This document shows, one piece after another, positions 7,922 through 41,322 of a stretch of 42,531 bases of DNA; position 1 is the stretch's first letter; the number at the start of each line of letters is the position of its first letter. The DNA comes from a virus, in the IMG/VR virus record IMGVR_UViG_3300027906_000045, positions 1 through 42,531 of that record; one strand, written 5' to 3'. Under the pieces are notes generated by a model that saw nothing but the letters and a program-made list of their open reading frames with translations, did no database searches and had not been told where the DNA came from. The position numbers were made by a program, and so were the translations under genes.

Positions 7922-7929
7922 TATTTACC
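7922..7929 (-). promoter_or_regulatory. Late-promoter-like box GGTAAATA, 5 nt before ATG
   Basis: GGTAAATA then CATAT then the ATG at 7916. There is no Shine-Dalgarno in the gap. The box overlaps the last codons of gp17. Same spacing as the boxes at 9520 and 13891. Confidence 0.5.
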
Positions 7930-19971: not shown

Positions 19972-19979
19972 GATAAATA
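19972..19979 (+). promoter_or_regulatory. Late promoter GATAAATA for gp14 operon
   Basis: GATAAATA on the plus strand, 8 nt before the gp14 ATG at 19988. It is only 5 bp from the gp13 box on the other strand. It would start the transcript through gp14, gp15 and the heptose genes. Confidence 0.6.
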
Positions 19980-19987
19980 CTAACGTT

Positions 19988-21145
19988 ATGCCAAGACTCA
20001 GTTTATACAAACCCGAAAAGGGCAAAGACTACGAATTCCTAGATAAAACCATCACGGAAATGTTCACTGTTGGTGGTACTGATGTGTTTGTTCACAAGTA
20101 TCTAGGGCCTGTAAACCCTGAAGAAGCAGATGCTACTCAGGACAAGCCTCGTTACGATGCCGTTAAAGAGACAAATATTCAGGATATGTTATTCCTTGAA
20201 AATAGGGATAGAAAGTATGATCCTGACATTTACGTAATACGTGGTATTTACAATATTGCTGATATTGACTTTGATATGAGTCAATTTGGTCTGTTTTTAC
20301 AGAACGACACATTGTTTATGACAATACCTATTAATTATAGTGTTAAAACATTAGGTCGTAAAATTATGCCAGGTGACGTTATAGAGCTACCACACTTAAA
20401 AGATGAACACGCACTTAACGATTATCAAGTAGCACTAAAACGTTTTTATGTGGTTGAAGATGTAAACAGAGCGGCAGAAGGATTTTCACAGAGTTGGTAT
20501 CCGCATTTATATAGAGTTAAATTAAAACAAATTGTTGACTCACAAGAATTTAAAGAAATACTTGATTTACCTGCAGAAGAAGGAAGTACAAATACATTAC
20601 GTGATGTGCTTTCAACTTATGAAAAAGAAATGCAGATTAATGATGCCGTTGTTGCTCAAGCAGAAGCAGACGCACCTAAGTCAGGTTACAATACTAAACC
20701 ATTCTATACATTACAAGTTGATAAGTTTGGAAAACCAGAATTAGTTACAACTGATACAAGTACACTAGATGCAAGTACAGCCGGATTGTTAGCTGACAGA
20801 GTAAACCAAACACCTGAAAGATCAGGTTACCAAGGTTACTTGTTAGGAGATGGTATTGCACCAAATGGTGAAACGTTTGGACATGGTGCAAGTTTTCCTT
20901 TAAACCAAGTAAAAGGAGATTACTTTTTGCGTACAGACTTTTTACCAAACAGACTATTTAGATTTGATGGACAACGTTGGTCCAAAATGGAAGATTCAGT
21001 TAGACTTACAATGTCTAATACTGATACGAAACAAACACAAAAAGGAACATTTATTAACAACACTACTACAAGTGATATAGGTGGTGAACAAGTTAAAGAA
21101 AGACAACCTTTGAGTAAAGCACTTAAACCTAAGGCGGATAATTAA
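19988..21145 (+). CDS. 14: gp14-like neck protein
   Basis: A 385-residue protein (T4 gp14 has 256). Residues 1 to about 200 are the neck domain, with 'FLDKTITEMFTVGGTDVFVH', 'FLENRDRKYDPDIYVIRGIY', 'FDMSQFGLFLQNDTLFMT' and 'WYPHLYRVKLKQIVDSQEF', strongly like marine T4-like gp14. The C-terminal extension includes 'GDYFLRTDFLPNRLFRFDGQ' followed by RW, a hairpin also seen in the sheath and gp15 here. It pairs with gp13 to seal the packaged head. It is on the opposite strand to gp13, which is unusual against the T4 order. TAATG overlap with gp15. Confidence 0.92.
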   Translation: MPRLSLYKPEKGKDYEFLDKTITEMFTVGGTDVFVHKYLGPVNPEEADATQDKPRYDAVKETNIQDMLFLENRDRKYDPDIYVIRGIYNIADIDFDMSQFGLFLQNDTLFMTIPINYSVKTLGRKIMPGDVIELPHLKDEHALNDYQVALKRFYVVEDVNRAAEGFSQSWYPHLYRVKLKQIVDSQEFKEILDLPAEEGSTNTLRDVLSTYEKEMQINDAVVAQAEADAPKSGYNTKPFYTLQVDKFGKPELVTTDTSTLDASTAGLLADRVNQTPERSGYQGYLLGDGIAPNGETFGHGASFPLNQVKGDYFLRTDFLPNRLFRFDGQRWSKMEDSVRLTMSNTDTKQTQKGTFINNTTTSDIGGEQVKERQPLSKALKPKADN

Positions 21146-22599
21146 TGTTACATTTTTACGACGGACAAATTAGAAGATATATTACTCAAATAATTAGATT
21201 GTTGAGTAACTTCTCTTATGTTGACGGTAAAGGTAAGTTTGTTAAAGTTCCTGTCATGTATGGAGATATTACAAGACAAGTTGGACACATCATTAGAGAT
21301 AATTCAGAAAATAAAATTCCAAGTGCTCCACGTATAGGTGTATATGTAGCAGGTATGGAGATGGACAGAACTAGAACTGCTGATCCAAGTTATACAGGTA
21401 AAGTACATATTAGAGAACGTGCATTTGATACAGCAGGTAACGAATACTTAAACGAACAAGGTAAAAATTATACAGTTGAACGTATGATGCCTACACCATA
21501 TAACTTAACTGTTACAGCAGATATATGGACAACTAATACAGAACAAAAATTACAAATACTAGAACAAATATTAATGTTGTTTAACCCTAGTTTAGAAATA
21601 CAAACTACTGACAACTATGTAGACTGGACTTCTTTATCAGTTGTTAATTTAGAAAACATTAACTTTAGTTCAAGAAGTATTCCAGTAGGAACTGAATCAG
21701 ATATTGATGTTGCAACATTAGGATTTAGTACACCAATTTATATTAGTCCACCTGCTAAAGTTAAAAAGCTAGGTGTTATTACAAATGTTGTAATGAGTAT
21801 ATTTGACGAAAGCAAAGGTACTATTAACTTACAAGACAGTATGCCTGAACTACAAGCATACGATGATACTAATGCTAACTTGGCTAAAGGTTCAGATACA
21901 AGTACAGCAGGTAAATCAGGATCAGGTAAGTCAAGCAAATCTACAGCTTCATTAACTGTTTCAACTGCGTCTGGATATGATGCTATTGTAATGGGTAACG
22001 TTGTACAATTAGGTAAGAACGGTATTGCTGGTGAAATTAATTGGCGTGAAGTTCTTGAATCAGAACCTGGTATGTACAGAGCAAGTTTAAGTAAAATTTA
22101 TCTTGAAAGAGCAGGATTTACAACTTCTGTTGTAGGTACGTTTGCATTAAACACATTAGATGAAACACAATTAATAGTTAATTGGGACGAAGATACTATA
22201 CCAACAAACACAGTTTTAGTTGGTCCTTTAGCAACTAAAGGAACAATAGATTATATTATAGATCCTACTAAAACTAATCCAACTAATATAAGAGGTAATG
22301 GAGTAAGAATTCTTTTATTAGGTGATATTGGCTCAACTGAAAATACAGATGGTGCTGATGCTTGGAAAGGATCAAAAGGCGACTTTATTGCTAAAGAAAA
22401 TGACATTGTTGAATGGGACGGAAATGATTGGAATATCGTTTTTGATGCTAGTGGTAATAGCGGACAAGATTCAACAGTACCAGAGGTTACATATACAACC
22501 AACCTAAATACAGGTATCCAATATAAATGGGACGGCACAGAATGGACATTAACGTTCGAAGGCGAGTACCGAAAAGGAACCTGGCGCCTAGCACTCTAA
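21145..22599 (+). CDS. 15: gp15-like tail terminator / sheath stabiliser
   Basis: The N-terminal 240 residues match T4 gp15: 'MLHFYDGQIRRYITQIIRLL' then 'FVKVPVMYGD', 'NYTVERMMPTPYNLTVTADI' and 'QKLQILEQILMLFNPSLEIQ'. gp15 caps the finished tail so that it binds the neck. At 484 residues it is longer than T4 gp15 (272). A Ser/Gly/Lys linker (about 250-272) leads to a C-terminal region with 'SKIYLERAGFTTSVVGTFAL' and two 'WDG..W' hairpins ('VEWDGNDWNIVF', 'YKWDGTEWTLTF'). It overlaps gp14 by one base; the Nudix gene follows after 13 bp with no terminator. Confidence 0.9.
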   Translation: MLHFYDGQIRRYITQIIRLLSNFSYVDGKGKFVKVPVMYGDITRQVGHIIRDNSENKIPSAPRIGVYVAGMEMDRTRTADPSYTGKVHIRERAFDTAGNEYLNEQGKNYTVERMMPTPYNLTVTADIWTTNTEQKLQILEQILMLFNPSLEIQTTDNYVDWTSLSVVNLENINFSSRSIPVGTESDIDVATLGFSTPIYISPPAKVKKLGVITNVVMSIFDESKGTINLQDSMPELQAYDDTNANLAKGSDTSTAGKSGSGKSSKSTASLTVSTASGYDAIVMGNVVQLGKNGIAGEINWREVLESEPGMYRASLSKIYLERAGFTTSVVGTFALNTLDETQLIVNWDEDTIPTNTVLVGPLATKGTIDYIIDPTKTNPTNIRGNGVRILLLGDIGSTENTDGADAWKGSKGDFIAKENDIVEWDGNDWNIVFDASGNSGQDSTVPEVTYTTNLNTGIQYKWDGTEWTLTFEGEYRKGTWRLAL

Positions 22600-22612: not shown

Positions 22613-23050
22613 ATGAGTAAGATTATTTGTAGTGGAGCTCTCTTCTATACATTAGATACACAAAGGTTCTTGTTTTTACATAGAACCCAAAGTAGACAAG
22701 CAGATGTTTGGGGACTTGTAGGTGGTACTAATGAAAGTGAAGAAATTCCGTATCAAGCATTATTAAGAGAAATAAAAGAAGAAATAGGAAGTACACCTTC
22801 TATTATTAAATCTATTCCACTAGAAACTTTTGTAAGTAATGATGAAAAATTTAATTTTCATACATATCTTTGCGTAGTAAAAGAAGAATTTATTCCAAAA
22901 TTAAATAAAGAGCATAATGGATATGCTTGGGTTAGTTTTGGTAAATGGCCTAAACCTTTGCACCAAGGATTAAGAAACACATTACAAAGCAAAGCAAACC
23001 TCACAAAATTACAAACAGTATTTCAACTTATCTCACTATTGGAGAAATAA
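22613..23050 (+). CDS. Nudix hydrolase
   Basis: A 145-residue protein with an intact Nudix box: G38, five residues, E44, seven residues, then REIKEEIG (52-59), the metal-binding REUXEEXG motif. The fold context 'VWGLVGGTNES' before it agrees. It would hydrolyse a nucleoside diphosphate linked to another group. Placed directly before hldE-hldD (stop and start adjacent at 23050/23051) it may act on a nucleotide sugar, such as a GDP-mannose hydrolase-like activity, or on a toxic by-product; the substrate is not visible. It follows the late gene gp15 in the same transcript. Confidence 0.9.
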   Translation: MSKIICSGALFYTLDTQRFLFLHRTQSRQADVWGLVGGTNESEEIPYQALLREIKEEIGSTPSIIKSIPLETFVSNDEKFNFHTYLCVVKEEFIPKLNKEHNGYAWVSFGKWPKPLHQGLRNTLQSKANLTKLQTVFQLISLLEK

Positions 23051-24295
23051 ATGATTAGAGTATTTGGCGACATAATGTTAGACCGCTGGATAGTGGGAGA
23101 AGCAAATAGAATGTCACCAGAGGCTCCTGTTCCTGTATTACTAGAACAAGAACAAAAATATTCAATAGGAGGAGCAGGCAATTTAGCAGTTAATATTAAA
23201 AGTTTAGGTTCAGAAGTAGAACTTACTACTGTTACTGGACAAGATAAAGAAGGTTATAAGTTACAAGAACTTTTATTAAAGACAGGTTTACAATGTTCAT
23301 TAGCAGGAGATGTTAATGTTACAACAACTAAAACAAGACTAGTTTCAAAAGGTGGACAACATATTGTACGTTGGGATAGAGAAGAACAATACATAGGCGA
23401 AGATGCATTTGATAGATTTACAGTTCATAAAGATGATATTATTTGCATAAGCGATTATAATAAAGGTACTGTTAGAAGAGATACAATAGGAAATTTATTA
23501 GATAAAGGTACAAAAATTTTAGTAGATCCTAAACAAGATGCAAACTTTTATCATGGAGCATACCTTGTTAAACCTAATATGCAAGAGTATGAAGAATGGT
23601 TTGGCAAATGGGATAAAACTACTGCTCTTAGACAAATGCAAAGATTAGATTGGACTTGGTTAGTTGTTACTGATGGAGCCAATGGTATGCACGTATTAAA
23701 CATACTAGATGAATACAAACATTTTAAAGAAGAAGTAAAAGAAGTAGCAGATGTTACAGGTGCAGGAGATACTGTAATGGCAGTTATTGCCTATGGTATT
23801 GATAAAGGTATGGACGTATTTGATTCGTGTAAATTAAGCTGTTATGCGGCGGCTAGAATAGTAGAAAAAAGAGGTGTTGCTATAATACAACAGGACGATT
23901 TGGAACGCAATATCGTATGGACTAATGGGGTGTTTGATATACTGCATACTGGCCATTTAAAGCTACTTAGACACGCACACACGCTTGGAAAACGCCTTGT
24001 GGTGGGCATTAATAGTGATTCCAGTGTAAAACGTTTAAAAGGCGATTTAAGGCCCATAAACGATCAGAATACACGTAAAGAAGCATTGTTAGAATTAGGC
24101 TTTGTAGATGATGTTGTTATATTTGAAGAAGATACACCATATGAAAAAATTAAAGAAATACAACCAGATGTTATAGTAAAGGGCGGTGATTACAAAGTAT
24201 CAGAAGTAGTCGGAAATGATTTAGCCAAGGTAGAGATTTTCCCAACTGTAAAAGGGCATTCAACAACTACAATAATTGAAAGATTAAAATCATGA
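23051..24295 (+). CDS. hldE: HldE-like bifunctional heptose 7-phosphate kinase / heptose 1-phosphate adenylyltransferase
   Basis: The protein has 414 residues and two domains, in the same order as bacterial HldE (E. coli 477). Residues 1 to about 270 are a PfkB/ribokinase-type kinase: 'FGDIMLDRW', 'SPEAPVPVLL', 'SIGGAGNLAVN' and 'DVTGAGD' with catalytic Asp240. Residues about 285-414 are the nucleotidyltransferase: 'WTNGVFDILHTGH' with HTGH at 299-302, 'VVGINSDSSVKRLKG' and 'DVIVKGGDYK'. Together they turn heptose 7-phosphate to the 1,7-bisphosphate and, after dephosphorylation, make ADP-heptose. All key motifs look intact. hldD follows with a 4-bp overlap. No GmhA or GmhB is seen here, so the host must supply those steps. 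Confidence 0.92.
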   Translation: MIRVFGDIMLDRWIVGEANRMSPEAPVPVLLEQEQKYSIGGAGNLAVNIKSLGSEVELTTVTGQDKEGYKLQELLLKTGLQCSLAGDVNVTTTKTRLVSKGGQHIVRWDREEQYIGEDAFDRFTVHKDDIICISDYNKGTVRRDTIGNLLDKGTKILVDPKQDANFYHGAYLVKPNMQEYEEWFGKWDKTTALRQMQRLDWTWLVVTDGANGMHVLNILDEYKHFKEEVKEVADVTGAGDTVMAVIAYGIDKGMDVFDSCKLSCYAAARIVEKRGVAIIQQDDLERNIVWTNGVFDILHTGHLKLLRHAHTLGKRLVVGINSDSSVKRLKGDLRPINDQNTRKEALLELGFVDDVVIFEEDTPYEKIKEIQPDVIVKGGDYKVSEVVGNDLAKVEIFPTVKGHSTTTIIERLKS

Positions 24296-25134
24296 GAGTA
24301 TTAGTAACAGGACATAAAGGATTTATTGGAAGAAACTTATGTGCATACTTGCTACATAGAGGACACCAAGTTGAAGGCTGGGAATGGGAAATAAACAAAG
24401 TTCCAGATCCACAAAACTATGATAGAGTTGTACACCTAGGTGCTTTAAGTAGCACAACAGAACGTGATGTAGAAAAAGTTTTAATGCAGAATTTTGAATT
24501 TAGTCAAAGACTTTTACAACTTTGTGACCAATGTGGAACAACTTTAATATATGCCTCAAGTGCTAGTGTATATGGTAACGAACAAACTCAAAGAAACTTA
24601 AAACAAATTAAAGAAAACGATCCAAAGTATCCAATGAGTCCATATAGTTGGAGCAAATATTTGTTTGATAAACTTGTAATGGAAATACCTGAGTATACAA
24701 TTAATGTACAAGGACTTAGATTCTTTAATGTATATGGACCTGGTGAACAAGATAAAGGCGAACAACAAAGTGTTTTTGGTAAGTTTGAATTACAAGCAAA
24801 GAACTTAAAAGAAATAACTGTATTTGAAAAGAGTGCTTTTATTAGAAGAGATTTTATTTGGGTAGGAGATGTATGTCAAATTATTGAAAAAATGTTTGAT
24901 GTAGATGCTACTGATATTTGGAATGTTGGAACAGGTATTGCTCCATCGTTTATGGATATTGCAGAAGGTTATGCTAAACTTTATGATGCTAAAATTAAAG
25001 AAGTACCATTACCAACACATTTACAAGGCCAATATCAGTATTACACTTGCGCCAATATAGACAAGCTAATTAATAGTATAGGTGAATACAAGTTTAAGAC
25101 TGTACAGGAGTATATAGATGCCAGCAAGACATAG
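24292..25134 (+). CDS. hldD: HldD-like ADP-heptose 6-epimerase (extended SDR)
   Basis: A 280-residue SDR epimerase. The NAD(P)-binding GHKGFIG is at residues 7-13, 'HLGALSSTTERDVEKVLMQN' corresponds to the HldD-specific 'GA.SSTTE' segment, and the active site is Ser/Tyr118/Lys122 ('YSWSK'). 'FFNVYGPGE', 'IRRDFIWVGDV', 'WNVGTGIAPSF' and 'LPTHLQGQYQYYT' match HldD strand by strand. HldD (E. coli 310) converts ADP-D-glycero- to ADP-L-glycero-D-manno-heptose, the LPS core donor. Coupling to hldE (ATGA at 24292-24295) supports the pathway. A different NDP-sugar epimerase is possible but less likely. Confidence 0.87.
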   Translation: MRVLVTGHKGFIGRNLCAYLLHRGHQVEGWEWEINKVPDPQNYDRVVHLGALSSTTERDVEKVLMQNFEFSQRLLQLCDQCGTTLIYASSASVYGNEQTQRNLKQIKENDPKYPMSPYSWSKYLFDKLVMEIPEYTINVQGLRFFNVYGPGEQDKGEQQSVFGKFELQAKNLKEITVFEKSAFIRRDFIWVGDVCQIIEKMFDVDATDIWNVGTGIAPSFMDIAEGYAKLYDAKIKEVPLPTHLQGQYQYYTCANIDKLINSIGEYKFKTVQEYIDASKT

Positions 25135-25534
25135 TGGTAAGGTAGACAAAGGTTGGGGATATGAATTAATTTGGGCAACCAACGACTTGTACTGCGGAAA
25201 GATTTTGGTTTTTGAAAAAGCCGGTTCCAAAATGTCAATGCATTTTCATAAAATAAAAGATGAATCTTGGTTTGTTAATCAAGGTAGTTTTAAATTAAGA
25301 TATATTGATACTGCTAAAGCACAAACAATGGAAGTTGTAATTAAAGCAGGAGACACTTGGAGAAATCCCCCACTTATGCCACATCAACTAGAAGCCATCG
25401 AAGCAGGTAGTTCACTTACTGAAGTAAGCACATCTGATTCAATCGAAGATAATTATAGACTTGCTCCGGGTGATAGTCAAAAGGATCAACCAGATGCAAA
25501 TCTACAAGTCACAACTGAAACACAACCTAAGTAG
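25118..25534 (+). CDS. Single-domain cupin, sugar-isomerase-like
   Basis: A 138-residue cupin. 'KGWGYELIWATND', 'KMSMHFHKIKDESWFVNQGS' and 'PPLMPHQLEAIEAG' give metal ligands His42, His44, Glu49 and His89, the pattern of type II mannose-6-phosphate isomerase-like cupins. The C-terminal 25 residues are charged and probably disordered. It overlaps the end of hldD by 17 bp and itself overlaps the next gene, so it belongs to the heptose operon and probably acts on a sugar phosphate or NDP-sugar. The related cupin fused to a nucleotidyltransferase at 1396-2169 suggests the family is used twice in this phage. Confidence 0.85.
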   Translation: MPARHSGKVDKGWGYELIWATNDLYCGKILVFEKAGSKMSMHFHKIKDESWFVNQGSFKLRYIDTAKAQTMEVVIKAGDTWRNPPLMPHQLEAIEAGSSLTEVSTSDSIEDNYRLAPGDSQKDQPDANLQVTTETQPK

Positions 25535-26180
25535 TTTCGTACATACAAGTAAATTTCTAGCTAATCAAATTGCAAATGAAATTGCTTTACCGAATGGTTT
25601 AGCAAACGTTCCACACCCTAGTTTATGTACTGCTTGTAGCCCACATTATAATTTGTTTACAAGTACTATGCCAGAAGTAGTAGCTTTGTATAAAGACATA
25701 CAAGAATTTTTTAATAAAGAAGTAACGCACGATAGTAGAAAGTTTTATTGGATAGTAGGTTGGTTAAACTATTGGCCACATAAAGGCGAAGTATTAGATT
25801 GGCATGGTCACGATTATGGTGGAGGTGTAGATTGCTTTCATGGTATATATGGTATTAACTGTGAACCAAGTTATGCAGAATATAGAGAAATAGGAACAGA
25901 AGAAATTGTTGAAAAAGTAGAAAATAAAAATAATCAATTACTAATTACACACTCTACTAACATAGAACATAGAATAAGTGACTGGGAAGATAAAGAACCA
26001 CGCATAACGATAGCTTTTAACATACAACCAATGGATACTATGCTACAACATATCCGAACGCCTCAAGTTAATCAGGCAAATAAGGTCGGTCTACAGTTAC
26101 ATCAAGACAACTTAAGAATGAATCAACCTGGTTCTTTTACGCCAGGCGGTAACCCATTAAACTATTACGTGCCACTATAA
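25494..26180 (+). CDS. Putative 2OG-Fe(II) oxygenase
   Basis: A 228-residue protein from the chosen start (MQIYKSQLKH), which has AAGGA 8 nt upstream; a longer frame begins at 25461 without a good site. 'VLDWHGHDYGG' (His104, His106, Asp107), 'LITHSTNIEHRISDW' (His159) and 'EPRITIAFNI' (Arg170) fit the double-stranded beta-helix metal and 2-oxoglutarate sites of marine phage oxygenases. It would hydroxylate or oxidise a sugar, protein or base; the substrate is unknown. It overlaps the cupin gene by 41 bp and the next oxygenase by one base (TAATG at 26180), so it is part of the same run. Confidence 0.68.
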   Translation: MQIYKSQLKHNLSSFVHTSKFLANQIANEIALPNGLANVPHPSLCTACSPHYNLFTSTMPEVVALYKDIQEFFNKEVTHDSRKFYWIVGWLNYWPHKGEVLDWHGHDYGGGVDCFHGIYGINCEPSYAEYREIGTEEIVEKVENKNNQLLITHSTNIEHRISDWEDKEPRITIAFNIQPMDTMLQHIRTPQVNQANKVGLQLHQDNLRMNQPGSFTPGGNPLNYYVPL

Positions 26181-26776
26181 TGAAATACGAAAATATATTC
26201 CCAACTGGTATACTAATACATGATGTACCTAGCAATATTGCAAACGAAGTTGAAGAACTTGTAGTAAGTCGTATAGATCAATTACAAAGACCAGATGACA
26301 ATGCTCCACACGCCACAGATTATTTTGAAAGAGATAAAATTATAGATTTAAAATACGACACACCTAATTTATATTCTGAAATAGATATGTGTGTTAGAGA
26401 TTATCAAAATAAAAATGCAATGAATAGAATAAACGAAGGCTATGGATATAACTATTGGACACAAGATTATAAAGAAGGTGATATACATAGTGAACATCAT
26501 CATAACGTAGGACAAATTAGTGGTGTGTATTATGTTCGTGCTAATGAAAGTGCAGGAGGAATTAGTTTTAGAAATCCAAATCCTTTTACAGAATACGGAC
26601 ATACAATGAGAGATACTGCACCTTATAGTTGGCAAGAATATGTATATAAACCTGTTAAAGGAAGAATACTATTGTTTCCAAGTTACTTGAAACATACAGC
26701 TTTACCTAGTGGAAAAAATTGTGTTAGGAGTGTTATAGCTTTTAACGTTACGTCAGCTTTTCCGCCAACAAAATAA
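26180..26776 (+). CDS. 2OG-Fe(II) oxygenase, phage DSBH type
   Basis: The 198 residues match the putative 2OG-Fe(II) oxygenase family common in cyanophages: 'IHSEHHHNVGQISGVYYVRA' (His106 and His108 as likely ligands), 'GISFRNPN', 'GRILLFPSYLKHTALPSG' (His172) and 'RSVIAFNV' (Arg183 for 2-oxoglutarate). The order and spacing are standard. The substrate is unknown; next to sugar genes it may oxidise a glycan or nucleotide sugar. It ends base-to-base against the oppositely oriented giant tail gene (26776/26777), with no terminator visible between. Confidence 0.85.
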   Translation: MKYENIFPTGILIHDVPSNIANEVEELVVSRIDQLQRPDDNAPHATDYFERDKIIDLKYDTPNLYSEIDMCVRDYQNKNAMNRINEGYGYNYWTQDYKEGDIHSEHHHNVGQISGVYYVRANESAGGISFRNPNPFTEYGHTMRDTAPYSWQEYVYKPVKGRILLFPSYLKHTALPSGKNCVRSVIAFNVTSAFPPTK

Positions 26777-29700
26777 TTACGCCTGAGCTTCACCCCATCT
26801 TAGAATAATGTTCGCTTTAGTATCAGCACCCTCCGCCTTATAAACGTTAATTGCTAATACGTCTGGTCCGTTCGGGAAAGTACCTCGCCCACCTAGTGTG
26901 GTATTAGTTAATTCTTTCAACGTACTTAAATCTAATGAACTTTGTTCACCTGGTGTAGCAATAAATGAAAATACTGTTTCACCTGGTTGTGCGTATGGCG
27001 GTTGTCCAAATAAGAACCCAACAGTATCACCTGCGTTAATTGTTGTGTTCGAAGTCTGTGTAAACGTAATTCTGTAGTAATCTGTTCCACCATAACTTAA
27101 TGGACCTTGTACACCAGAAACGTATGTTCCTCCCGGAAACTTACTATCGTTAACCTCTGTACCTGATATAGCACCAGTCGCCTCCCAACTTGTTTTTGTA
27201 AAGTACAAGTAGTTTGTGCCAGTTAATGAAGCACCTGGGTTAACTGAAACTGTAATAGTTTCACTTGCACTAATTGTAGAAGTGTTTCTATTACTAAATC
27301 TAAATAGTTTAGGATTATAGTTTTCATAGATATCAGTAATAGTAGTACCAGCTGGGAAGTCAGATAATCCTGTATTTGGATTACCAGTTGCTGTAACTGT
27401 TTGACCCGTTGTTACTTCACTACTTACTAGGTTCCATGAAGCATTAGTTATCCAATGCCATTGTGTATTATTTCTATTATATTGTGCAACAACATCGTTT
27501 GTCATCTCTGCAACAATAGTACCATTTCTAGTAACCTGAGTTGCACCTGTTGACCATACAACAGATCCACCCGGGGCTATCTGAGCAAAACTTGGTTGTC
27601 CACCAGCCGCTGATCCTGTTAATGCCGCCCAACCAACGTCACCTGGATCAAGTGGATAGTTTTGTGGATTTAGAATTCCTTCAACAACAATTCCACCTAC
27701 GATCGGATTACCACTTCCGTCACTACCATCTGATGTAATCTCAACACCTTCTAGTAGCAACTGTGCTCTGTTTAATAATTCTCTTTCACCTAAGTCACCC
27801 ACAATAGCATTAGATACACTAGGTGCTAGTCTTAACATAAACACCGTGTTTCTTGTTGAACTAATTGTGTTTGCAGTAGAAGTATATGAAAAGATATAAC
27901 CTCTATCACTATCAAACCCACCGTCTGTTTGGAAAGCTGATCCCCAGTGTGATATAATTGGTGTAATAGTATTACTAATTAATATAACACCAGTACGTGC
28001 TGTGTGCGTTGCGGCAACACCTGCCGTATAAGTTCTTGTTGCTCCTGCGGCAAAGTTTGTTAATGGTGCCGCTCTAGTACAACCAGTTAATGTATCTCCA
28101 GTTATACCTGTGTATTGTATCATTTCGTTATCAATAATAACTGTACCACCATTGTCTGGGAAGAATGAAGCGTCTTCTAATGGTATAGTATTTTGTGCAT
28201 CTGTCATATCAGCCGCTAACTTATCGTTAGGACCTTCGTTTGATACTTCGTAACGTACCGGCATATTACCTGTACGCATAAATGCTTCTGTGTTAACGTT
28301 TGAGTTTCTCATTCTGTGATAGAATATAAAGTTACCATCATCACCTCTAAGCATCCAGTCAATAAAACCAGCTCCGTACCAACTGTACTGTATTCCAATC
28401 ATCTGCATTTTAGATATATCCATAATATATCCTGATGATCCTGAACCATCTAATTTATCTTTGTTAAAGTCTGCTTGTTTAGATTTTTTATCTGAAACTA
28501 AACATAACTTGGCTCCACTTGCTGGAGTTACACCTCTAAAGTCTGGTGTTACGTTCATGTTAGTTTGATCAACTACTTGTGATACAACGTGTGTCATACC
28601 TTTAATAACAATTCTGTCACCAGCTTTAATTTGATCTCTAAATCTTGTTCCTGTACCTGTAACTGCGTTACTGTCTACTGCTAATGATATTGTACCTGAT
28701 AATTGTAATGTTGCAGTTCTTTGAACAGCATTAAAGTTTGATCCATCGTATTCCATAAAGATACCATTCTGATCATCAAACGCACCTGAACGTACAGTTG
28801 CACCGTGCCAGTTAAGTAATGAAACTTGAGCTTTTGCACTTAATACTGGAACTGTTGCTCCTAGTCCTGTTTGTGCAATAACTTTAAATGTTCTTTCACT
28901 AGTAATAGCTGATACTGTATATGGTCCATTATATCCTGGAGTTTCAATACCAATTAATTTAATTTGTCCACCAACTTGTAAACCGTGGTCAACATCATCA
29001 GTTGTAATATTAATAAATGATCCTTGTGCTACTGCATCTGCTTGTACAGTTAATAAGTCATAGGACGGAGCAAATAAGGCACCAGTTGTATACATAATAC
29101 CTTTACCTGATTGGTATCTAATATATTTTTTACTCTGTCTAATTGCCTGTGCACCGTGTTGTGGTCCACCTGTTCCTAACATAACACCACCATCATATGG
29201 TCTGTGTACAAAGAATGAATCTGGTCTTGGATACAATACAGCATTAATGTCGCCAACATCACTAATGGCTCCTGCCGCTCTACACTGATATCTCAGTGAA
29301 GTTGTTGTTGGAACTTGCTGTGCAAAGAACGGACCTTCTAATAATGTATGATTGTTTGTTCCATCATCTGTACTTACTGTAACAATAAATGCATCTCCTG
29401 GAATTAATCCGTGTGCAGTTGTAAATGAAACTTCAACAGTTGCCAATGCCGCAAATTGTATTGTTGTATTTTGTGGAATACCTGATGTTAAACTCTCTGA
29501 CATAGTTACAGTTGAATATGATTTAACAACTGTACCTGCTACTGCTGTACCTGAACTTGAACAAGCAATAATTCCTCCGTCTGTTGCAACTTCAGAAATT
29601 GTAACAACACAATCATTAGTTGGAGTTTGTCCACCTAAACTTGTACCTGCAATTTTAATTTTGTTTCCTACTTGGTAGTTAAGTCCATCGTTATTAACAA

Positions 29701-32700
29701 TAGCAGTTGAATATGCTCCTAAATTTCTTGTAATATTAAACGTAGCATTCATACCACTGTTTTGTAAGTTCTGTCCTGGAATTCCTGTGTAACTTCCTGT
29801 ACCTGAAGGTCCTGTACCTGAACCACTAATAGTTGAAATGTCACCACCTGCACCAACGGCTGTAATATTAATTGTAATATCGTTAGTTGGAGTAACACCA
29901 CCTACTTGGTTACCTTGTATTTTAATATTTTGATCTGTGTAGTAACCAGTACCTGGAGTGTTTACTGCATAACTATATGTTCCACCAGTAATTGTAATAT
30001 CAAATGTTGCTGTAGAACCTGTTAAGTTTGTTGCTTCTCCGTCAAACTGACTTAAATCTTCAACTGTTTTTGTGTCTAAGGCTGTACCTGCTACCGTTAC
30101 AGTTAAAACTTCACCAGTACCTGCGTCAACTGTTGCAACTGTAACTGTACAGTTGTTTGTAACATCAACACCGCCTAATGCACTACCTAGTACAACAAAT
30201 TCTTCACCAACTAGATATCCAGTACCACCTACAGTTACAATAGCACTATAAGCCGTGTCTAATCTTGTAACGTTCATGGCAAAGTTCGCACCACCAACTG
30301 TGTTTGAAGTGTAAGCCGGAGTGGCATAAGTTTCTGTGGCATCTGGTGCTGTACCAGTTATACTAATTGTATTAATTCTTCCTGTTCCACTTACTGCATC
30401 TACTTTTACAATAGCGTCATGTGTTGGACTACTACCACCTAAATTAGTTCCTAAAATTTGTAATCTATCACCAGCCGCATATCCCGCCGTTGCATCTGCG
30501 GCAGTACCTGAAGAGCTAAATGATGTAATACCACCTGAGGCATTTGCACCTGTAACATTAATTGTTAAATCGTTTGCTGGTGAAGTACCACCTAAGTTTG
30601 CTCCTGAAACAATAATAGTGTTACCACTACCATAGTTAGTTCCTACTTCGTTACCTTGTGTAACTGTATAGCTGTTATTGTAATTTACAGTAATGTTAAA
30701 TGAAGCCGCCGCTCCAACTATGTTTTGACCTGATGTTACGTTTGTATAAGTTGCAGAGTTAACTGCTGTACCTGTAACACTAATTGCAGTAATAACACCT
30801 GAACCGTCAACAGTATCAATAGTAATTGTAGCATCGTTGGCCGGACTTGCACCACCTAAGTTTGCACCTGAAATGACACACGTTTCTGTTGCACTATATC
30901 CTGAACCTGGAGCAACAACACTTGCAGTATAAGTTGTTCCAGTAAATTGTACGTTGAATGTAGCATTTGATCCAACACCACTGTAAGTATATGCTGGTTC
31001 ACTAAAAGTACCTTGTGCCGCGGCACCTGTTCCTGATGCATTAAATGATGTAATACCACCACTACCATCAACACCTGTTATTGAAATATCTAAATCTTCT
31101 GCTGGACTTGATCCACCAAAGTTAGTTCCTGGAATTCTAATTAAGTCACCAACAATATAACCTGCGTCGGCGGCGCCTGCGTTTTCTGTAACGTTGTAAG
31201 TATTATTTGTTAATACAACGTCCCAAGCCGCACCAGTACCAACACCACCTTGTGTTACACCTGTTGCATTATTGGCATAAGTTGGATCTTTTAAACTTAC
31301 TGTATAAGCATTGTTTGTATATGTAACATCAAATATTGCACCTAAACCGTTACCGTTCATGTTTTGACCAGCGATGTTACTAAAACTTCCGTTACCGTCA
31401 AATGCTGAACCTGACGAGCTAAATGATGTAATTGATCCGCTTGAATCAACTGAGTTAACAGTAATTCGACAATCGTTAGTTGTAGTTTGTCCACCTAATG
31501 TGTTACCAAGTACAACAATAACATCATCTACTTCATATTGATCACCACCTGTATTATTTTGTGTAACTGTATAGTTTCCACCTGCTCTGTCAATATCCCA
31601 CAATGCACCAAAACCTGTGCTGTTATAGTTTGTTCCTGCAACTGCTGTATATTGTACGTTGTTACCAACGATAGCACTTGTTGTATTACCATCTAAGTTT
31701 ACATCAGTTCCAACAATACTTGATACGTGAACTGCTGTACCATCTCCTCTATCAATGGCCTGTCCTGCTAATACTCCTGTTACATCACTTAATGCAATTT
31801 GGTTAACACCACTTGCATAATCTCCTGCAACTGACCAAGTAGCAATTTCTCCGCCACCACCTGTTACAACTGTAACCTGAGCACCACTTCCAATACCTGT
31901 TCCATCTGTTTTAGTTGCAACTTGGAAAGTTAATGCTGGTGCACCACCGCCTCCTAATGAAGCGTCTAATACTGTGATAGTATCGCCTACTGCGTTATTT
32001 CTACCACCTTTAAAATTTGTTATACTTGTTGCCGCACCTGTACCGTCAATAACAATATCAAATGTACCAACAATTAATTCTGAAGCAATACTATCTGAAC
32101 TACCACTTATTGCTGTGTAAGTTCCTGCTGTTCTACTTGCATTCGCAACACCTATTGTACCTGCTGTTGCAATTTGTCCTGCAACGTTTTGTACCGGAGC
32201 ACCAATCTCTGGTGTGTTTCCAATCCAAGTAACTTTGTCTGAACCATTTGGAGCCGCTAATGGGTTTGTAAATGTACCTGCTGTACCTTGTGATATAATA
32301 CTAAATGTTGGACTACCAATCGCCGCACCAGTATAAAAGTTTGCTTCTCTTAACTGTGTGTAATAAGTTGAAAGTACTTGTCCGTTACTTGTACCAACTT
32401 TTGATTTAGCAAAAAATGTAAATGTATTTGCAGTAGGAACAGTTGAAATTATAAACGAACCTTCTGCTCTACTTGCCCCTTGAATACTATTTTCAAGAGC
32501 TTTAATTGTAATAGGTGTACCTGCTACAATACCATGAGCACCAACTGTTGTTACTGTAATTAAACTTTGACCAACACCACCTGTACCTGTTGAAGCATCA
32601 GTTACAACTGAAGCAACTTCTTTATCAGTACCTGGTACTTCGTAAATACTTGGATAACCTCTTTGCATAGCAATCGCTTGCCACTTCGTAGGCTGTAGAC

Positions 32701-34153
32701 CATATTCAAAGTCAGCATCAAGCATGGATACGGAGTTTGAAACTCTCATACGTTCAATAGCATCAGTACCAAAATCAAATGGTCTTGTTCTTGTTTCACC
32801 TTGATCTATAAAGATCTGTAAATCATCTGTGTCGTAGTATAAAGGTATTTTTTCTTCAATTGGTAAATTGTCTAAACCATTCTCAATTACATCTGTAATA
32901 ACAAAGAATAAGTTAGTTACTCTTGTATTAACACCTATTTCAGGTAAACTTAAAATAACATTCTGTGATACTGCACCTGCTCCAACTTGTTGTGAAGTGT
33001 ATGCAACATTTTTTAAAATGTAATTGTTAATTAAATCTCTTGCAAAGTTTTTAGCCGCAATCTCTGGAGTTCTATCACCGTCAATTTGTGGAGTTGTTTG
33101 TACCCAATACTTACTTGCATTAAGATATGTGTTTGCATTACCGCCGTACTTGATATCTTTTGTAATACCAGCTACGTTTAATCCCATATCTCTTTCACAC
33201 TTGGTAGTGTTGTATGTATAATTGTGCCACATACCTGAAGTTGCACTTGCCACGTTTGCCGCAATCCAGGCTACTGTTTCTTTTTTAACAAATTCTAAGT
33301 TTGCTTCTAAAACTGCTACTGCTTTATCTGTATAAGTTATGTTGTCTGTATTTTTATCTAGATAAACAGTTGTAATAGTTCCTGTTCTTTCTAAGAACTT
33401 TGGAAAGTCTTCTTCAACACCTTTAGTTAATTGTGAAGTATCATCTGTTTGGAATTCACAACTTCCACCTAATTTAGGATCACTAAAGTTAAAGATAACT
33501 TCGTTGTTTGTTGTATCAGTAATTAATAATAAATCGTTTGATGGAACACGAGTCTGCATCTTAACACTTGAAACTTTTGTTCTATCAAGTGCTGGAACAT
33601 TATCAAGTCCGTTTGTAATAACGTCTGTAATAATTGCAAACAAGGCAGTAACTCTTGCATCTGATCCTGATTCATAACTTGAACCATTGTTAGTATATTG
33701 TGTTGTTACTACTGGACTTTGTGCAGATGTAAAAGTTGCTTGAGGTAAAATATAGTTATTAATTAAACTAACAACAAAGTTCTTTGCCGCTACTTCAGGT
33801 TGTCTATCTCCGTCAACCTGTGGAGTTGAATTAATCCAATATTTACTTGCTAAAAATCTTGCCTGTGCGTTTCCGCCATATCTTAAATCGTATAAAATAC
33901 CACCGTCACCATTTACACCTTGTAAATTGTATCTTGTATCTCTTTCACACTTTGGTGAATTGTATGTATAGTTGTACCAGAAGCTAGTAGGGTCAGCCGC
34001 ATTGGCTAAAACCTGTGCGGCAATCCATGCCACAGTTTCGTCACAGATAAACTCAACGTTATTTTTAATTAATTCATACGCATGAGGGTTTCTGTTTTCT
34101 GAAACGGGAATTCCTGGTTGGAATATATACGTATCTATCTTTTGTTTAGCCAT
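26777..34153 (-). CDS. Giant tail/fibre structural protein, 2458 residues, repeat-rich
   Basis: There are three regions. Residues 1 to about 400 hold a duplicated domain: copies at about 27-135 and 281-385 share 'ETVAWIAA', 'YNYTYN..KCERD' and 'AAKNF...LINNYIL'. Residues about 715-1550 are tandem beta-rich repeats of about 88 residues with 'GSGYSATETCVISGANLGGA' and 'SPANDATITIDTVDGSG'. The C-terminal part (about 1640-2458) has 'FFVHRPYDGGVMLGTGGPQH', 'IRYQSGKGIMYTTGALF' and ends 'TKANIILRWGEAQA', which I recognise from large marine T4-like virion proteins, though not by a gene number. There is no signal peptide. It is probably a baseplate-attached host-recognition or adhesion fibre. AGGAAG lies 8 nt before the start; the 343-residue fibre gene lies 5 bp upstream. 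Confidence 0.85.
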   Translation of the reverse strand: MAKQKIDTYIFQPGIPVSENRNPHAYELIKNNVEFICDETVAWIAAQVLANAADPTSFWYNYTYNSPKCERDTRYNLQGVNGDGGILYDLRYGGNAQARFLASKYWINSTPQVDGDRQPEVAAKNFVVSLINNYILPQATFTSAQSPVVTTQYTNNGSSYESGSDARVTALFAIITDVITNGLDNVPALDRTKVSSVKMQTRVPSNDLLLITDTTNNEVIFNFSDPKLGGSCEFQTDDTSQLTKGVEEDFPKFLERTGTITTVYLDKNTDNITYTDKAVAVLEANLEFVKKETVAWIAANVASATSGMWHNYTYNTTKCERDMGLNVAGITKDIKYGGNANTYLNASKYWVQTTPQIDGDRTPEIAAKNFARDLINNYILKNVAYTSQQVGAGAVSQNVILSLPEIGVNTRVTNLFFVITDVIENGLDNLPIEEKIPLYYDTDDLQIFIDQGETRTRPFDFGTDAIERMRVSNSVSMLDADFEYGLQPTKWQAIAMQRGYPSIYEVPGTDKEVASVVTDASTGTGGVGQSLITVTTVGAHGIVAGTPITIKALENSIQGASRAEGSFIISTVPTANTFTFFAKSKVGTSNGQVLSTYYTQLREANFYTGAAIGSPTFSIISQGTAGTFTNPLAAPNGSDKVTWIGNTPEIGAPVQNVAGQIATAGTIGVANASRTAGTYTAISGSSDSIASELIVGTFDIVIDGTGAATSITNFKGGRNNAVGDTITVLDASLGGGGAPALTFQVATKTDGTGIGSGAQVTVVTGGGGEIATWSVAGDYASGVNQIALSDVTGVLAGQAIDRGDGTAVHVSSIVGTDVNLDGNTTSAIVGNNVQYTAVAGTNYNSTGFGALWDIDRAGGNYTVTQNNTGGDQYEVDDVIVVLGNTLGGQTTTNDCRITVNSVDSSGSITSFSSSGSAFDGNGSFSNIAGQNMNGNGLGAIFDVTYTNNAYTVSLKDPTYANNATGVTQGGVGTGAAWDVVLTNNTYNVTENAGAADAGYIVGDLIRIPGTNFGGSSPAEDLDISITGVDGSGGITSFNASGTGAAAQGTFSEPAYTYSGVGSNATFNVQFTGTTYTASVVAPGSGYSATETCVISGANLGGASPANDATITIDTVDGSGVITAISVTGTAVNSATYTNVTSGQNIVGAAASFNITVNYNNSYTVTQGNEVGTNYGSGNTIIVSGANLGGTSPANDLTINVTGANASGGITSFSSSGTAADATAGYAAGDRLQILGTNLGGSSPTHDAIVKVDAVSGTGRINTISITGTAPDATETYATPAYTSNTVGGANFAMNVTRLDTAYSAIVTVGGTGYLVGEEFVVLGSALGGVDVTNNCTVTVATVDAGTGEVLTVTVAGTALDTKTVEDLSQFDGEATNLTGSTATFDITITGGTYSYAVNTPGTGYYTDQNIKIQGNQVGGVTPTNDITINITAVGAGGDISTISGSGTGPSGTGSYTGIPGQNLQNSGMNATFNITRNLGAYSTAIVNNDGLNYQVGNKIKIAGTSLGGQTPTNDCVVTISEVATDGGIIACSSSGTAVAGTVVKSYSTVTMSESLTSGIPQNTTIQFAALATVEVSFTTAHGLIPGDAFIVTVSTDDGTNNHTLLEGPFFAQQVPTTTSLRYQCRAAGAISDVGDINAVLYPRPDSFFVHRPYDGGVMLGTGGPQHGAQAIRQSKKYIRYQSGKGIMYTTGALFAPSYDLLTVQADAVAQGSFINITTDDVDHGLQVGGQIKLIGIETPGYNGPYTVSAITSERTFKVIAQTGLGATVPVLSAKAQVSLLNWHGATVRSGAFDDQNGIFMEYDGSNFNAVQRTATLQLSGTISLAVDSNAVTGTGTRFRDQIKAGDRIVIKGMTHVVSQVVDQTNMNVTPDFRGVTPASGAKLCLVSDKKSKQADFNKDKLDGSGSSGYIMDISKMQMIGIQYSWYGAGFIDWMLRGDDGNFIFYHRMRNSNVNTEAFMRTGNMPVRYEVSNEGPNDKLAADMTDAQNTIPLEDASFFPDNGGTVIIDNEMIQYTGITGDTLTGCTRAAPLTNFAAGATRTYTAGVAATHTARTGVILISNTITPIISHWGSAFQTDGGFDSDRGYIFSYTSTANTISSTRNTVFMLRLAPSVSNAIVGDLGERELLNRAQLLLEGVEITSDGSDGSGNPIVGGIVVEGILNPQNYPLDPGDVGWAALTGSAAGGQPSFAQIAPGGSVVWSTGATQVTRNGTIVAEMTNDVVAQYNRNNTQWHWITNASWNLVSSEVTTGQTVTATGNPNTGLSDFPAGTTITDIYENYNPKLFRFSNRNTSTISASETITVSVNPGASLTGTNYLYFTKTSWEATGAISGTEVNDSKFPGGTYVSGVQGPLSYGGTDYYRITFTQTSNTTINAGDTVGFLFGQPPYAQPGETVFSFIATPGEQSSLDLSTLKELTNTTLGGRGTFPNGPDVLAINVYKAEGADTKANIILRWGEAQA
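29560..31540 (-). repeat. Tandem domain repeats in the giant tail gene, period about 265 bp
   Basis: The codons for 'LGG..P.ND' recur near 29630, 29900, 30170, 30435, 30585, 30850, 31112 and 31487, with a degenerate copy near 31950. Most steps are 262-270 bp; one unit is only about 150 bp (its first half is missing) and one step is about 375 bp. Each unit has the pattern Y.V, GxGYxxGDxIxIxG, LGGxxPxND, IxVxxVDxxGxI, SGT. This suggests duplication and deletion by recombination between units. Confidence 0.85.
33010..34075 (-). repeat. Two-copy N-terminal domain in the giant tail gene
   Basis: Copy one (about 33760-34075) and copy two (about 33010-33320) encode parallel blocks: 'VEFICDETVAWIAAQV' versus 'LEFVKKETVAWIAANV', 'TPQVDGDRQPEVAAKNF' versus 'TPQIDGDRTPEIAAKNF', and 'ALFAIITDVITNGLDNVP' versus 'NLFFVITDVIENGLDNLP' after each. 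The spacing, about 750 bp, points to an old in-frame duplication. Confidence 0.8.
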
Positions 34154-37021: not shown

Positions 37022-37643
37022 ATTCTCTCGCTATCCCCAAATACCACATATCTAACGGATACTGTTTTGAAGGAAAATGATGAGTAATCTTGAGATTATT
37101 TTCAGCAATCATGTCTTTAAATGTGTCAGGATTTGACCCCCATACATTTTCAGCAAGTATTATTACTCCGTCATTTGACAAGTAATCTCCGACGTTATTA
37201 AAGAAATCTTTGTGTATAGACCAGTCTAAATCTTTATATTTCCTTGGATCGTCATAGTGTGCAACATACGGGTCACCATTAAAATGTGGAGGATTAGCAA
37301 CAATTAGGTCAAAAGATTGTTTAGGAATTAACTTAAAATTGTCACTTAAGAAGAATTGTGCTTTTTCATCAAGTTCATTTTTTAGTATAGTATGTAATAC
37401 AGGTTTCTGGTTAGGTTCCCAGATATCAGATAAAGTTATCTTTTCTGTTTTACCTGTAGTTAGCAACCCAAACCCCCAAAAGCCTGGTCCACTACACCAT
37501 TCTAACGAGTTGTAAAAAACTTTGTCACTAGTGATAAAAGAAGTTGCGTCTAAGAAATCATCAATCATGGTATTACCACAACCGTCTATTTCATCAGTCC
37601 AGTATATCTTTGTGTCGAAATATTGTGTAAATTTATCCGTCAT
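37008..37643 (-). CDS. MTS-type SAM methyltransferase (NPPH motif)
   Basis: A 211-residue class I methyltransferase. The SAM loop 'LEWCSGPGFWGFGLL' is at 47-61 and the catalytic 'FDLIVANPPHF' at 111-121, the NPP(Y/H/F) motif of enzymes that methylate exocyclic or amide nitrogens (PrmC, RsmC and DNA adenine types). Its target may be RNA, DNA, protein or a sugar amine. It overlaps the carbamoyltransferase by 11 bp and ends the operon of glycan genes, so it may modify the same glycan; a role in protecting phage DNA is an alternative. The last codons sit in a GC hairpin, so the C-terminus 'RESAER' may be a recent extension. Confidence 0.82.
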   Translation of the reverse strand: MTDKFTQYFDTKIYWTDEIDGCGNTMIDDFLDATSFITSDKVFYNSLEWCSGPGFWGFGLLTTGKTEKITLSDIWEPNQKPVLHTILKNELDEKAQFFLSDNFKLIPKQSFDLIVANPPHFNGDPYVAHYDDPRKYKDLDWSIHKDFFNNVGDYLSNDGVIILAENVWGSNPDTFKDMIAENNLKITHHFPSKQYPLDMWYLGIARESAER

Positions 37644-39438: not shown

Positions 39439-40254
39439 TTAAAATCCTCTATAAGTTCTATTCCAATTTACTGTTTTAGAAATATTTGCAATAGTCTCTT
39501 TATAATCATCAGTTTTTGCTTTAACAGTTGTATCTATCAATTTTTTTTGTTCTTCTGTTACGTTCTGGTTATGATTGTGTACCCAATCTAAATGTTGATA
39601 AGGACTAGGATGTAATTCTACCCATCTTCCTTCATCACCATTGAACCACCACGTTAAGTCTGGTCTATTCCAAGCATGAAGTCCTATTGGACATAACCAA
39701 TGATCACCTTTTAGTACATCTTTATATTCTTCTAAATTATATTCTTTTATAGCATCTGCAAGTTCAGGTGTGTTTCTTAAGTTTTCTCCATGACCTTTTT
39801 GATGTGGAATATCTGTTCCTAATGTATTAAGATCACTTATACTTGTAAAATAAAATTCACAACCTGTAGATTCTAATAAGCCTTTTGTTAATTCTATTGC
39901 GTGTAATGTATGTAAGAAAAATGCTTTCTCATCATAAAAAGTATCAATCCATTCTTTATCATATAGTTCTTCATTTTGATAACTGAATATACTACCTTTT
40001 GTTTGCCAAGGTTCTTTATGTTTAAAGTTCAACCAATCATGTCTTAAATGACTAGTCCATTGTATTATAACTTGATCTTTGTTATTGAATTTATTTTTTA
40101 TATTGCATTCTGCAACACGTTCAGCAATAGCACGATTGCCTAAACCAGCATGACCCCAGTTTTCGTAATAGTTAGCTTCAAGGCTTAAGATGTCTGCCCA
40201 CGTTGGCCAGTTCCATGAAGTATATGAACAACCAAATGTAAACAGTCTATCCAT
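39439..40254 (-). CDS. SGNH/GDSL-like hydrolase or acyltransferase
   Basis: A 271-residue protein with block I 'LFTFGCSYTSW' (Ser10 in place of the GDS serine), block II-like 'WGHAGLGNRAIAE' (Gly and Asn40) and a C-terminal 'LHPSPYQHLDWV' resembling the catalytic Asp/His block. This looks like the GCSYT-type SGNH-like proteins that occur in marine phages, although I cannot confirm the family. It may remove or transfer acyl groups on a glycan. No signal peptide is seen, so action in the cytoplasm. It abuts the carbamoyltransferase and overlaps the GT9-like gene by one base (TAATG at 40254). Confidence 0.72.
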   Translation of the reverse strand: MDRLFTFGCSYTSWNWPTWADILSLEANYYENWGHAGLGNRAIAERVAECNIKNKFNNKDQVIIQWTSHLRHDWLNFKHKEPWQTKGSIFSYQNEELYDKEWIDTFYDEKAFFLHTLHAIELTKGLLESTGCEFYFTSISDLNTLGTDIPHQKGHGENLRNTPELADAIKEYNLEEYKDVLKGDHWLCPIGLHAWNRPDLTWWFNGDEGRWVELHPSPYQHLDWVHNHNQNVTEEQKKLIDTTVKAKTDDYKETIANISKTVNWNRTYRGF

Positions 40255-41290: not shown

Positions 41291-41322
41291 CACTATGCAG
41301 TTATTTAAAAGGATTTATTTTA

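Follow-up and report, generated by a model that had tools for sequence, protein, structure and literature searches.

We analysed a 42,531-nucleotide stretch of viral DNA (positions 1 to 42,531 of IMG/VR record IMGVR_UViG_3300027906_000045, the whole of which we call the window) that carries two adjacent genes, hldE and hldD, whose products resemble enzymes of ADP-heptose synthesis. The original prediction had described the two as adjacent and overlapping, and the open reading frames (ORFs) bear this out:

23051..24295, plus strand: HldE-like fused heptose 7-phosphate kinase and heptose 1-phosphate adenylyltransferase, 414 amino acids (ORF, family, PDB, tree and residue evidence)
24292..25134, plus strand: HldD-like ADP-heptose 6-epimerase, 280 amino acids (ORF, family, PDB, tree and residue evidence)

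The two ORFs share four bases (ATGA), the first base of hldE directly follows the NUDIX stop codon, and hldD overlaps a downstream cupin gene. HldE contains a PfkB kinase domain (PF00294, residues 4-278) and a nucleotidyltransferase domain (PF01467, residues 290-395), both above the Pfam cut-off. Every motif that had been named in the two proteins was found: the kinase GAGD with Asp240 and the nucleotidyltransferase HTGH (299-302) in HldE, and GHKGFIG (7-13), SSTTE (53-57) and Tyr118/Lys122 in HldD. The top NCBIfam family of HldE is PRK11316 HldE (E=3.3e-106, 355.7 bits against a curated cut-off of 521); the protein scores 240 bits with rfaE_dom_I (cut-off 345), where the next family reaches 53.9, and 159.4 bits with rfaE_dom_II (cut-off 181.5). 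HldD is matched best by TIGR02197 (E=1.4e-64, 218.3 bits, cut-off 274.6), and the next non-heptose family, galE, scores 66.5 bits. The expectation that profile searches would favor heptose families thus held in part: heptose models are the best for HldD and, over other PfkB families, for HldE, but their cut-offs were not reached. Because these scores lie below the equivalog cut-offs we use the names HldE-like and HldD-like, and HldE is no certified equivalog. Among PDB sequences, HldE matches a heptose 7-phosphate kinase (4e84, 1.9e-38) and a putative cytidylyltransferase (5x9q, 6.3e-26), and HldD matches HldD 1eq2 (3.7e-39); these similarities are far beyond what chance would give.

To place the two proteins we used an HldE alignment of 54 rows (22 viral, 4 cyanophage rows joined from two genes, and 28 bacterial) and an alignment of 42 rows for HldD, comprising 31 HldD-type sequences and 11 other short-chain dehydrogenases/reductases (SDRs); the latter are unnamed sequences chosen among weak TIGR02197 hits, and one SDR locus (L290) was dropped for want of a hit. 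We picked the residues to be tested ourselves and the column counts are therefore illustrative, not a blind test. Asp240, His299, Gly301, His302 and Lys161 of HldE are kept in 54/54 rows. Likewise, Lys155, Thr55, Tyr118 and Lys122 of HldD are kept in all 31 HldD-type rows, with valine at the Thr55 position in 11/11 other SDRs. Lys155 aligns with Lys178 of 1eq2, the second lysine of E. coli HldD besides that of the Tyr-xxx-Lys pair. In the HldE tree the window protein lies within a viral-only clade of 21 rows (support 98/91) and the cyanophage rows form a separate clade (100/100); a huge-phage row (L097) has a very long branch and unsure placement, and the deepest forks are weak. In the HldD tree a phage clade (100/99) unites 20 window-type rows with 4 from cyanophages and joins 7 bacterial HldD sequences at 100/100, separate from the other SDRs. 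HldD therefore did not fall into another sugar family, the outcome named in advance as damaging to its assignment; HldE was compared with other PfkB families by profile scores alone. Recent capture from the sampled bacterial hosts is ruled out by the viral-only HldE clade and the phage-only HldD clade of 24 rows.

Altogether, the window proteins have the architecture of bacterial HldE (fused, two-domain) and HldD, with the same residues at the tested columns, but they are shorter (414 and 280 residues) and belong to separate viral lineages; a further difference is that gmhA was not found in phage records and gmhB occurs in few relatives. The HldE/HldD-like enzymes of this marine virus of bacteria are real and probably active, and together they probably make ADP-heptose. 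It is conceivable that the enzymes have drifted to another nucleotide sugar, such as a different heptose isomer or another ADP- or CDP-sugar, as the sub-cut-off scores, the long independent viral HldE branch and the shortened HldD (280 residues against 310 in 1eq2) would allow. However, all tested residues are kept, HldD groups with bacterial HldD and a few relatives carry a GmhB-like partner, and we regard such drift as improbable.

The pair stands in a plus-strand unit that begins with virion genes and runs up to a convergent structural gene:

19988..21145, plus strand: gp3-like virion structural protein (phrog_11591, PHROG match), first gene of the unit
21145..22599, plus strand: gp15-like tail sheath stabiliser (PF16724, 4e-27)
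22613..23050, plus strand: NUDIX hydrolase (PF00293, 1.4e-14), immediately upstream of hldE
25118..25534, plus strand: cupin (phrog_7851 by PHROG; Pfam score below cut-off), with a counterpart in cyanophage cassettes
25494..26180, plus strand: phrog_2696 protein (PHROG match) of unknown function, in some relatives
26180..26776, plus strand: 2-oxoglutarate (2OG)-Fe(II) oxygenase (PF13759, 1.1e-19), in some relatives
26777..34153, minus strand: large virion structural protein (phrog_5838, 1.8e-229), convergent with the cassette

This arrangement is conserved. We examined 91 related loci, of which five re-fetch contigs already counted and several are near-copies. NUDIX and hldE occur together in 90 of them; hldD is present in 85 of these 90, always on the strand of hldE and in 67 within 50 bases of it. 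The order NUDIX-hldE-hldD-cupin-fibre holds in 61/61 loci with all five genes, the fibre gene being opposed. Five loci (L051, L054, L056, L058 and L063) have an extra ORF between hldE and hldD, which in L054, the one scanned, is methyltransferase-like, and the cassette of L182 carries an added 2OG oxygenase. In L276 the cassette is missing and the NUDIX gene lies 33 bases from a presumed fibre gene, identified by eye. In one locus (L029:2055-4969) NUDIX and hldE are separated by two ORFs, of which the second bears a weak resemblance to halogenases (CmlS, 41.9 of 900 bits); the cassette of cyanophage S-SSM7 also holds an annotated tryptophan halogenase.

Conservation of this kind bears on whether the genes do anything for the phage. 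Passages of a 2010 comparison of T4-like genomes (PMC3037559) raise filler ("stuffer DNA") versus function for the cyanophage lipopolysaccharide (LPS) genes and leave their role open. Non-functional cargo for headful packaging would agree with the lack of a demonstrated function and with the missing cassette in some relatives (L276). Omega, however, is 0.16-0.33 for hldE and 0.09-0.26 for hldD (eight comparisons each with relatives), comparable to the 0.12-0.34 of gp15, and the catalytic columns are intact and the gene order conserved. The selection result makes filler unlikely, and on all the evidence we give it very little credence.

At the far end of the window, on the minus strand, lies a second group of genes:

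40254..41243, minus strand: GT9-like (heptosyltransferase-fold) protein, 329 amino acids, phrog_8954, a PHROG family of unknown function (AlphaFold2 (AF2) model, fold search, profile match)
39439..40254, minus strand: conserved protein in whose alignment SGNH-hydrolase-like blocks (GCSxT, GxGN and HPS) were recognised by eye; no Pfam or PHROG match
37633..39438, minus strand: NodU/Nol-type carbamoyltransferase (PF16861, 1.1e-56, 191.5 bits; PF02543, 6.8e-25, 88.7 bits; both above cut-off)
41323..42498, minus strand: tail-fibre-assembly-like protein, 391 amino acids (PF16778, 8.3e-5, below cut-off; phrog_4912, 2.5e-5), upstream of the GT9-like gene

The first of these has no Pfam match, and phmmer and profile searches of it against PDB sequences gave nothing relevant; its homologue in cyanophage P-SSM2 has a sub-threshold Glyco_transf_9 match (15.4 of 22 bits). 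As this Pfam cut-off is not reached, we call the protein GT9-like. An AF2 model built from 34 phage sequences has a predicted local distance difference test score (pLDDT) of 83.9 and a predicted template modelling score of 0.85, and its top Foldseek matches are GT9 proteins including WaaC, WaaF and TibC (7.6e-10 to 3tov). Structural alignments give Z values of 18.6-23.1 for GT9-fold rows and at most 12.0 in the next rows among the matches listed, at 8-15% identity to the GT9 relatives. When the family was aligned by hhalign with nine bacterial GT9 proteins the probability was 95.4% (E=1.8e-8), and it was below 1% with SDR, HldE and SGNH-like alignments; these controls are unrelated folds that cannot separate GT9 from other GT-B families, which the fold search does better. 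By the model, the fold of the phage protein is that of GT9. The Asp and His of its C-terminal motif align with bacterial GT9 proteins, including the TibC/AAH autotransporter heptosyltransferases and WaaC/WaaF, from which it differs in having Arg in place of the N-terminal Asp. The carbamoyltransferase scores 135.3 of 1000 bits with the NodU equivalog, far under that cut-off.

The GT9-like gene tends to occur with heptose genes. It occurs in 23 of 50,697 named phage records, 22 of which also have heptose kinase and HldD matches, the 23rd being a 4-kb fragment that ends in a nucleotidyltransferase; going by the record names, they amount to about nine lineages rather than to 23 independent ones. 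In IMG/VR we fetched 79 GT9-like loci. A kinase or nucleotidyltransferase lies inside the fetched stretch in 42, and of the remaining 37, 35 were searched as whole records (L127 and L153 were left out). Nineteen of these match HldE; in G026 and G047 the match is confined to a nucleotidyltransferase with an ORF of its own, and in G052 to a stub where the contig ends. The carbamoyltransferase gene follows the GT9-like gene in 70 of the 72 loci with 2 kb of room and precedes it in the other two (L169 and L171). hldE and hldD belong to a wider module with the GT9-like protein and the carbamoyltransferase.

Both parts of this module, each in a predicted transcription unit, stand behind a late-type promoter motif:

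19974..19979, plus strand: TAAATA late-promoter-like motif, 14 nucleotides before the gp3-like start, leading into the unit with hldE and hldD
41302..41307, minus strand: TAAATA late-promoter-like motif, 64 nucleotides before the GT9-like start (motif scan)

TAAATA is the core of T4-type late promoters. It lies on the same strand within 80 nucleotides upstream of 15 of 38 gene starts (our own ORF selection, with the start of the neck gene moved to 19941), whereas in circular shifts of the window the count averages 1.5 and peaks at 7, and 0 of 2000 reach the observed value. The motif is rarer than in shuffles (40 vs 77.6, both strands) but clusters ahead of genes, which looks like avoidance in the rest of the window. 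No TAAATA lies within 80 nucleotides of hldE, although the NUDIX gene contains one, at 22902. The window as a whole shows no enrichment of exact TATAAATA (4 vs 6.4), and searching 19.5-27.5 kb for sigma-70 promoters and terminators yielded no more than shuffled sequence did. From the placement of the motifs we infer that hldE, hldD and the GT9-like gene would be expressed late, with the virion genes.

The linked pair had been thought unusual in phages, and this part of the prediction is refuted by 318 IMG/VR stretches and by a split form in cultured cyanophages: a linked heptose gene pair in phages is not unusual. The 318 stretches, the best 80 of which we looked at, encode a relative of at least part of HldE in a pattern scan, and a scan with HldD gave 16 loci, some of them repeats. 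HldE-like matches occur in 51 of the 50,697 named phage records, with at least 80% of the query covered in 29, and 28 of the 51 are Synechococcus, Prochlorococcus or cyanophage records. The split kinase/nucleotidyltransferase form is annotated in P-SSM2, S-SSM7 and Sf-FS3. As far as the 2010 comparison goes in the passages cited, seven gene clusters of unknown function co-occur in P-SSM2, S-SM2 and S-SSM7 (PMC3037559); in the P-SSM2 record four of them (T4-GC 304, 305, 307 and 308) are a nucleotidyltransferase, a kinase, a cupin and an epimerase. The cyanophage "LPS" clusters of P-SSM2, S-SSM7 and Sf-FS3 hold, as the window does, a GT9-like protein, a carbamoyltransferase, a nucleotidyltransferase, a kinase, a cupin, an HldD-like epimerase and 2OG oxygenases. 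Those of S-SSM7 and Sf-FS3 adjoin gp13/14/15-type genes, and search matches point to S-CAM1 and S-CAM3 as further carriers. In the cyanophages, however, the kinase and the nucleotidyltransferase have a gene each and hldD runs on the opposite strand. The window has one fused HldE, whose gene overlaps hldD, and its GT9-like and carbamoyltransferase genes sit elsewhere, on the other strand. Pelagimyophages, also marine and T4-like, carry rfaE among host-surface-type genes, as here; the passages cited from their description interpret rfaE and glycosyltransferase genes as O-chain genes and mention no GT9-like/carbamoyltransferase module (PMC7029224). What is new here is the fused HldE and overlapping hldD in another marine T4-like group, their GT9-fold partner, the GmhB-like gene of a few relatives and the late-type promoter context. 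This ties the heptose genes of a second group of marine phages to a GT9-fold protein and to a carbamoyltransferase.

ADP-heptose synthesis also needs GmhA and GmhB, and the prediction that both are absent from the window was borne out, at the score thresholds applied. The 42.5-kb virus contig is probably a fragment, and the absence therefore holds for the contig only. Two relatives (L031 and L182) have a GmhB-like HAD gene inside the cassette, flanked by the cupin and fibre genes, and the record of L041 has a third elsewhere, with an internal stop codon. The GmhB-like protein at L102:1357-2046 has PRK08942 as its best family (142.5 of 178 bits, below cut-off) and keeps the DRDGVIN motif. A relative without an HldE match encodes another GmhB-like HAD protein (L276:5305-5934, minus strand), with SRDGVIN in place of DRDGVIN as first motif. 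L182 is a 335-kb contig (PBPT01000016.1) in a Candidatus Neomarinimicrobiota metagenome-assembled genome, and its T4-like structural genes are syntenic with the window; it is probably a misbinned large phage genome. The GmhA-like gene of that assembly is on a contig other than that of the phage genes and is thus uninformative about the phage. The "phosphoheptose isomerase" of P-SSM2 was considered as a GmhA and rejected: it is unmatched by TIGR00441 and scores as an EcbF/BcbF-type HAD phosphatase (35.2 of 162 bits). Cyanophage genes of this name (L093:13113-13457, L094:12052-12387, L095:10269-10607 and L096:10855-11181) encode about 110 residues with a HAD-type DxD motif, and the label is possibly a spread misannotation, the P-SSM2 protein being the one scanned in NCBIfam. 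The window phage would need a phosphatase of its host or one that was not detected.

These findings lead us to favor, with some confidence, a model in which ADP-heptose is produced late in infection and consumed by phage-encoded enzymes that glycosylate a virion or surface molecule. Host GmhA would turn host sedoheptulose 7-phosphate into the heptose precursor, and HldE would phosphorylate D-glycero-D-manno-heptose 7-phosphate to the 1,7-bisphosphate. A 7-phosphatase, host GmhB for the window phage and phage-borne in few relatives, would then remove the 7-phosphate, after which the second HldE domain would adenylylate heptose 1-phosphate. ADP-heptose would feed a decoration pathway directed by the phage, in which the GT9-like protein and the NodU-type carbamoyltransferase take part. 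The analysis itself establishes gene content, homology, kept active-site residues, selection, linkage and where the promoter motifs stand; enzyme activity, late timing, use of the donor by the GT9-like protein and a virion or surface molecule as acceptor are inferred. That these genes are common in marine viruses, usually with a predicted sugar transferase and among particle-building genes, suggests that the sugar may have a use for the virus other than the one initially proposed, in the host cell wall.

Several observations weigh against this model. Every heptose-model score of HldE and HldD is under its curated NCBIfam cut-off. Arg21 of the GT9-like protein, invariant in 34/34 phage rows, is aligned on the N-terminal Asp of the GT9 GD motif, which we take from WaaC to be the catalytic base. 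In TibC the candidate base is Asp-110, assigned by superposition on WaaC and MurG (PMC4358343). Plant GT9-like NDH subunits fit the fold about as well as enzymes do, and with the catalytic Asp replaced the GT9-like protein may not be an active transferase. The GmhA model TIGR00441 matched 0/25 phage records, and GmhB-like genes occur in only 3 of 22 HldE-bearing records, including the one with the internal stop codon. Coupling of GT9-like and heptose genes is not absolute, as 14 of 36 kinase phage records have no GT9-like gene and 16 of the 35 wholly searched GT9-like records have no HldE match. Ten of these 16 show no NUDIX relative either, which places the cassette site probably outside the fragment, but six hold one (weakly in G024 and G043, at 49.6 bits over half the protein); the cassette-less site of L276 comes from one of the six. 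Within the window, 16 kb separates the GT9-like gene from hldE, and the two run on opposite strands.

The two remaining explanations each name an acceptor and are partly nested in the favored model. In the first, the phage raises ADP-heptose for host LPS, core or O-chain, for example to block superinfection. The enzymes are those of the LPS pathway, such phage genes are treated as LPS genes in the cited passages of the literature (PMC3037559, PMC7029224), and the window phage's own host may have LPS heptose. Cultured carriers, however, infect marine Synechococcus and Prochlorococcus, and the LPS of Synechococcus WH8102 is reported to contain neither heptose nor 3-deoxy-D-manno-oct-2-ulosonic acid (KDO) (PMC4515613). 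Two reviews describe cyanobacterial LPS as free of heptose and KDO; one names WH8102 and CC9311, and also gives heptose for Spirulina and a possible amino-heptose for Anacystis. Sf-FS3, which carries the whole module, has WH8102 as its host, and for Sf-FS3 this speaks against the inner core of LPS as the destination of the sugar, though it leaves room for an O-chain or some other glycan of the surface; the argument bears on that phage, not on the host of the window phage. Late-type motifs and virion neighbors also fit superinfection exclusion less well. We consider host surface remodelling possible but rather unlikely. The claim that the pair supplies the LPS inner core accordingly survives as to the enzymes, by families and HldD tree, while the inner-core sink is doubtful in view of WH8102, the GT9-like protein and carbamoyltransferase, and the late motifs.

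In the second explanation the GT9-like protein would transfer ADP-heptose to a tail or fibre protein, as TibC does with autotransporters, and carbamoylation or another modification would follow. The fold shared with TibC (PMC4358343, in the part cited), the position of the gene near tail-fibre-like genes and after a late-type motif, and the reportedly heptose-free LPS of one carrier's host all point this way. The replaced catalytic Asp does not, and no acceptor emerged: the 391-residue upstream protein gave an AF2 model too poor for a fold search (mean pLDDT 48.4), and a relative of its gene stands before the GT9-like gene in only 35 of the 72 loci with room. We hold virion glycosylation to be a tentative possibility. 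Its boldest form, in which marine T4-like phages heptosylate and then carbamoylate their own virion proteins, late and independently of host LPS, through phrog_8954 as an unrecognised GT9-fold family, is in our judgment doubtful. Among the open-licence papers listed we found no report of phage ADP-heptose used on virions or of this GT9-like family. As to the cyanophage genes whose role the 2010 comparison did not settle, our evidence speaks against filler, and a cultured carrier whose host LPS is reportedly heptose-free makes the sink of the sugar directly testable on virions.

Rfam scans (whole window, and again 18-28 kb) gave no match and a tRNA scan of the window found none. Away from the module, the window encodes a second nucleotidyltransferase resembling the C-terminal domain of HldE (1396-2169, minus strand; TIGR02199, 77.1 bits, below cut-off), fused to a cupin of mannose-6-phosphate-isomerase type and adjoined by a TylF-type methyltransferase (704-1399); in G004, G005, G032 and G033 it is matched by separate ORFs of about the same length (259-260 residues). 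The terminase large subunit (TerL, 7925-9514, minus strand) is nearest to PA5oct-type Pseudomonas phages (53%), not to cyanophages.

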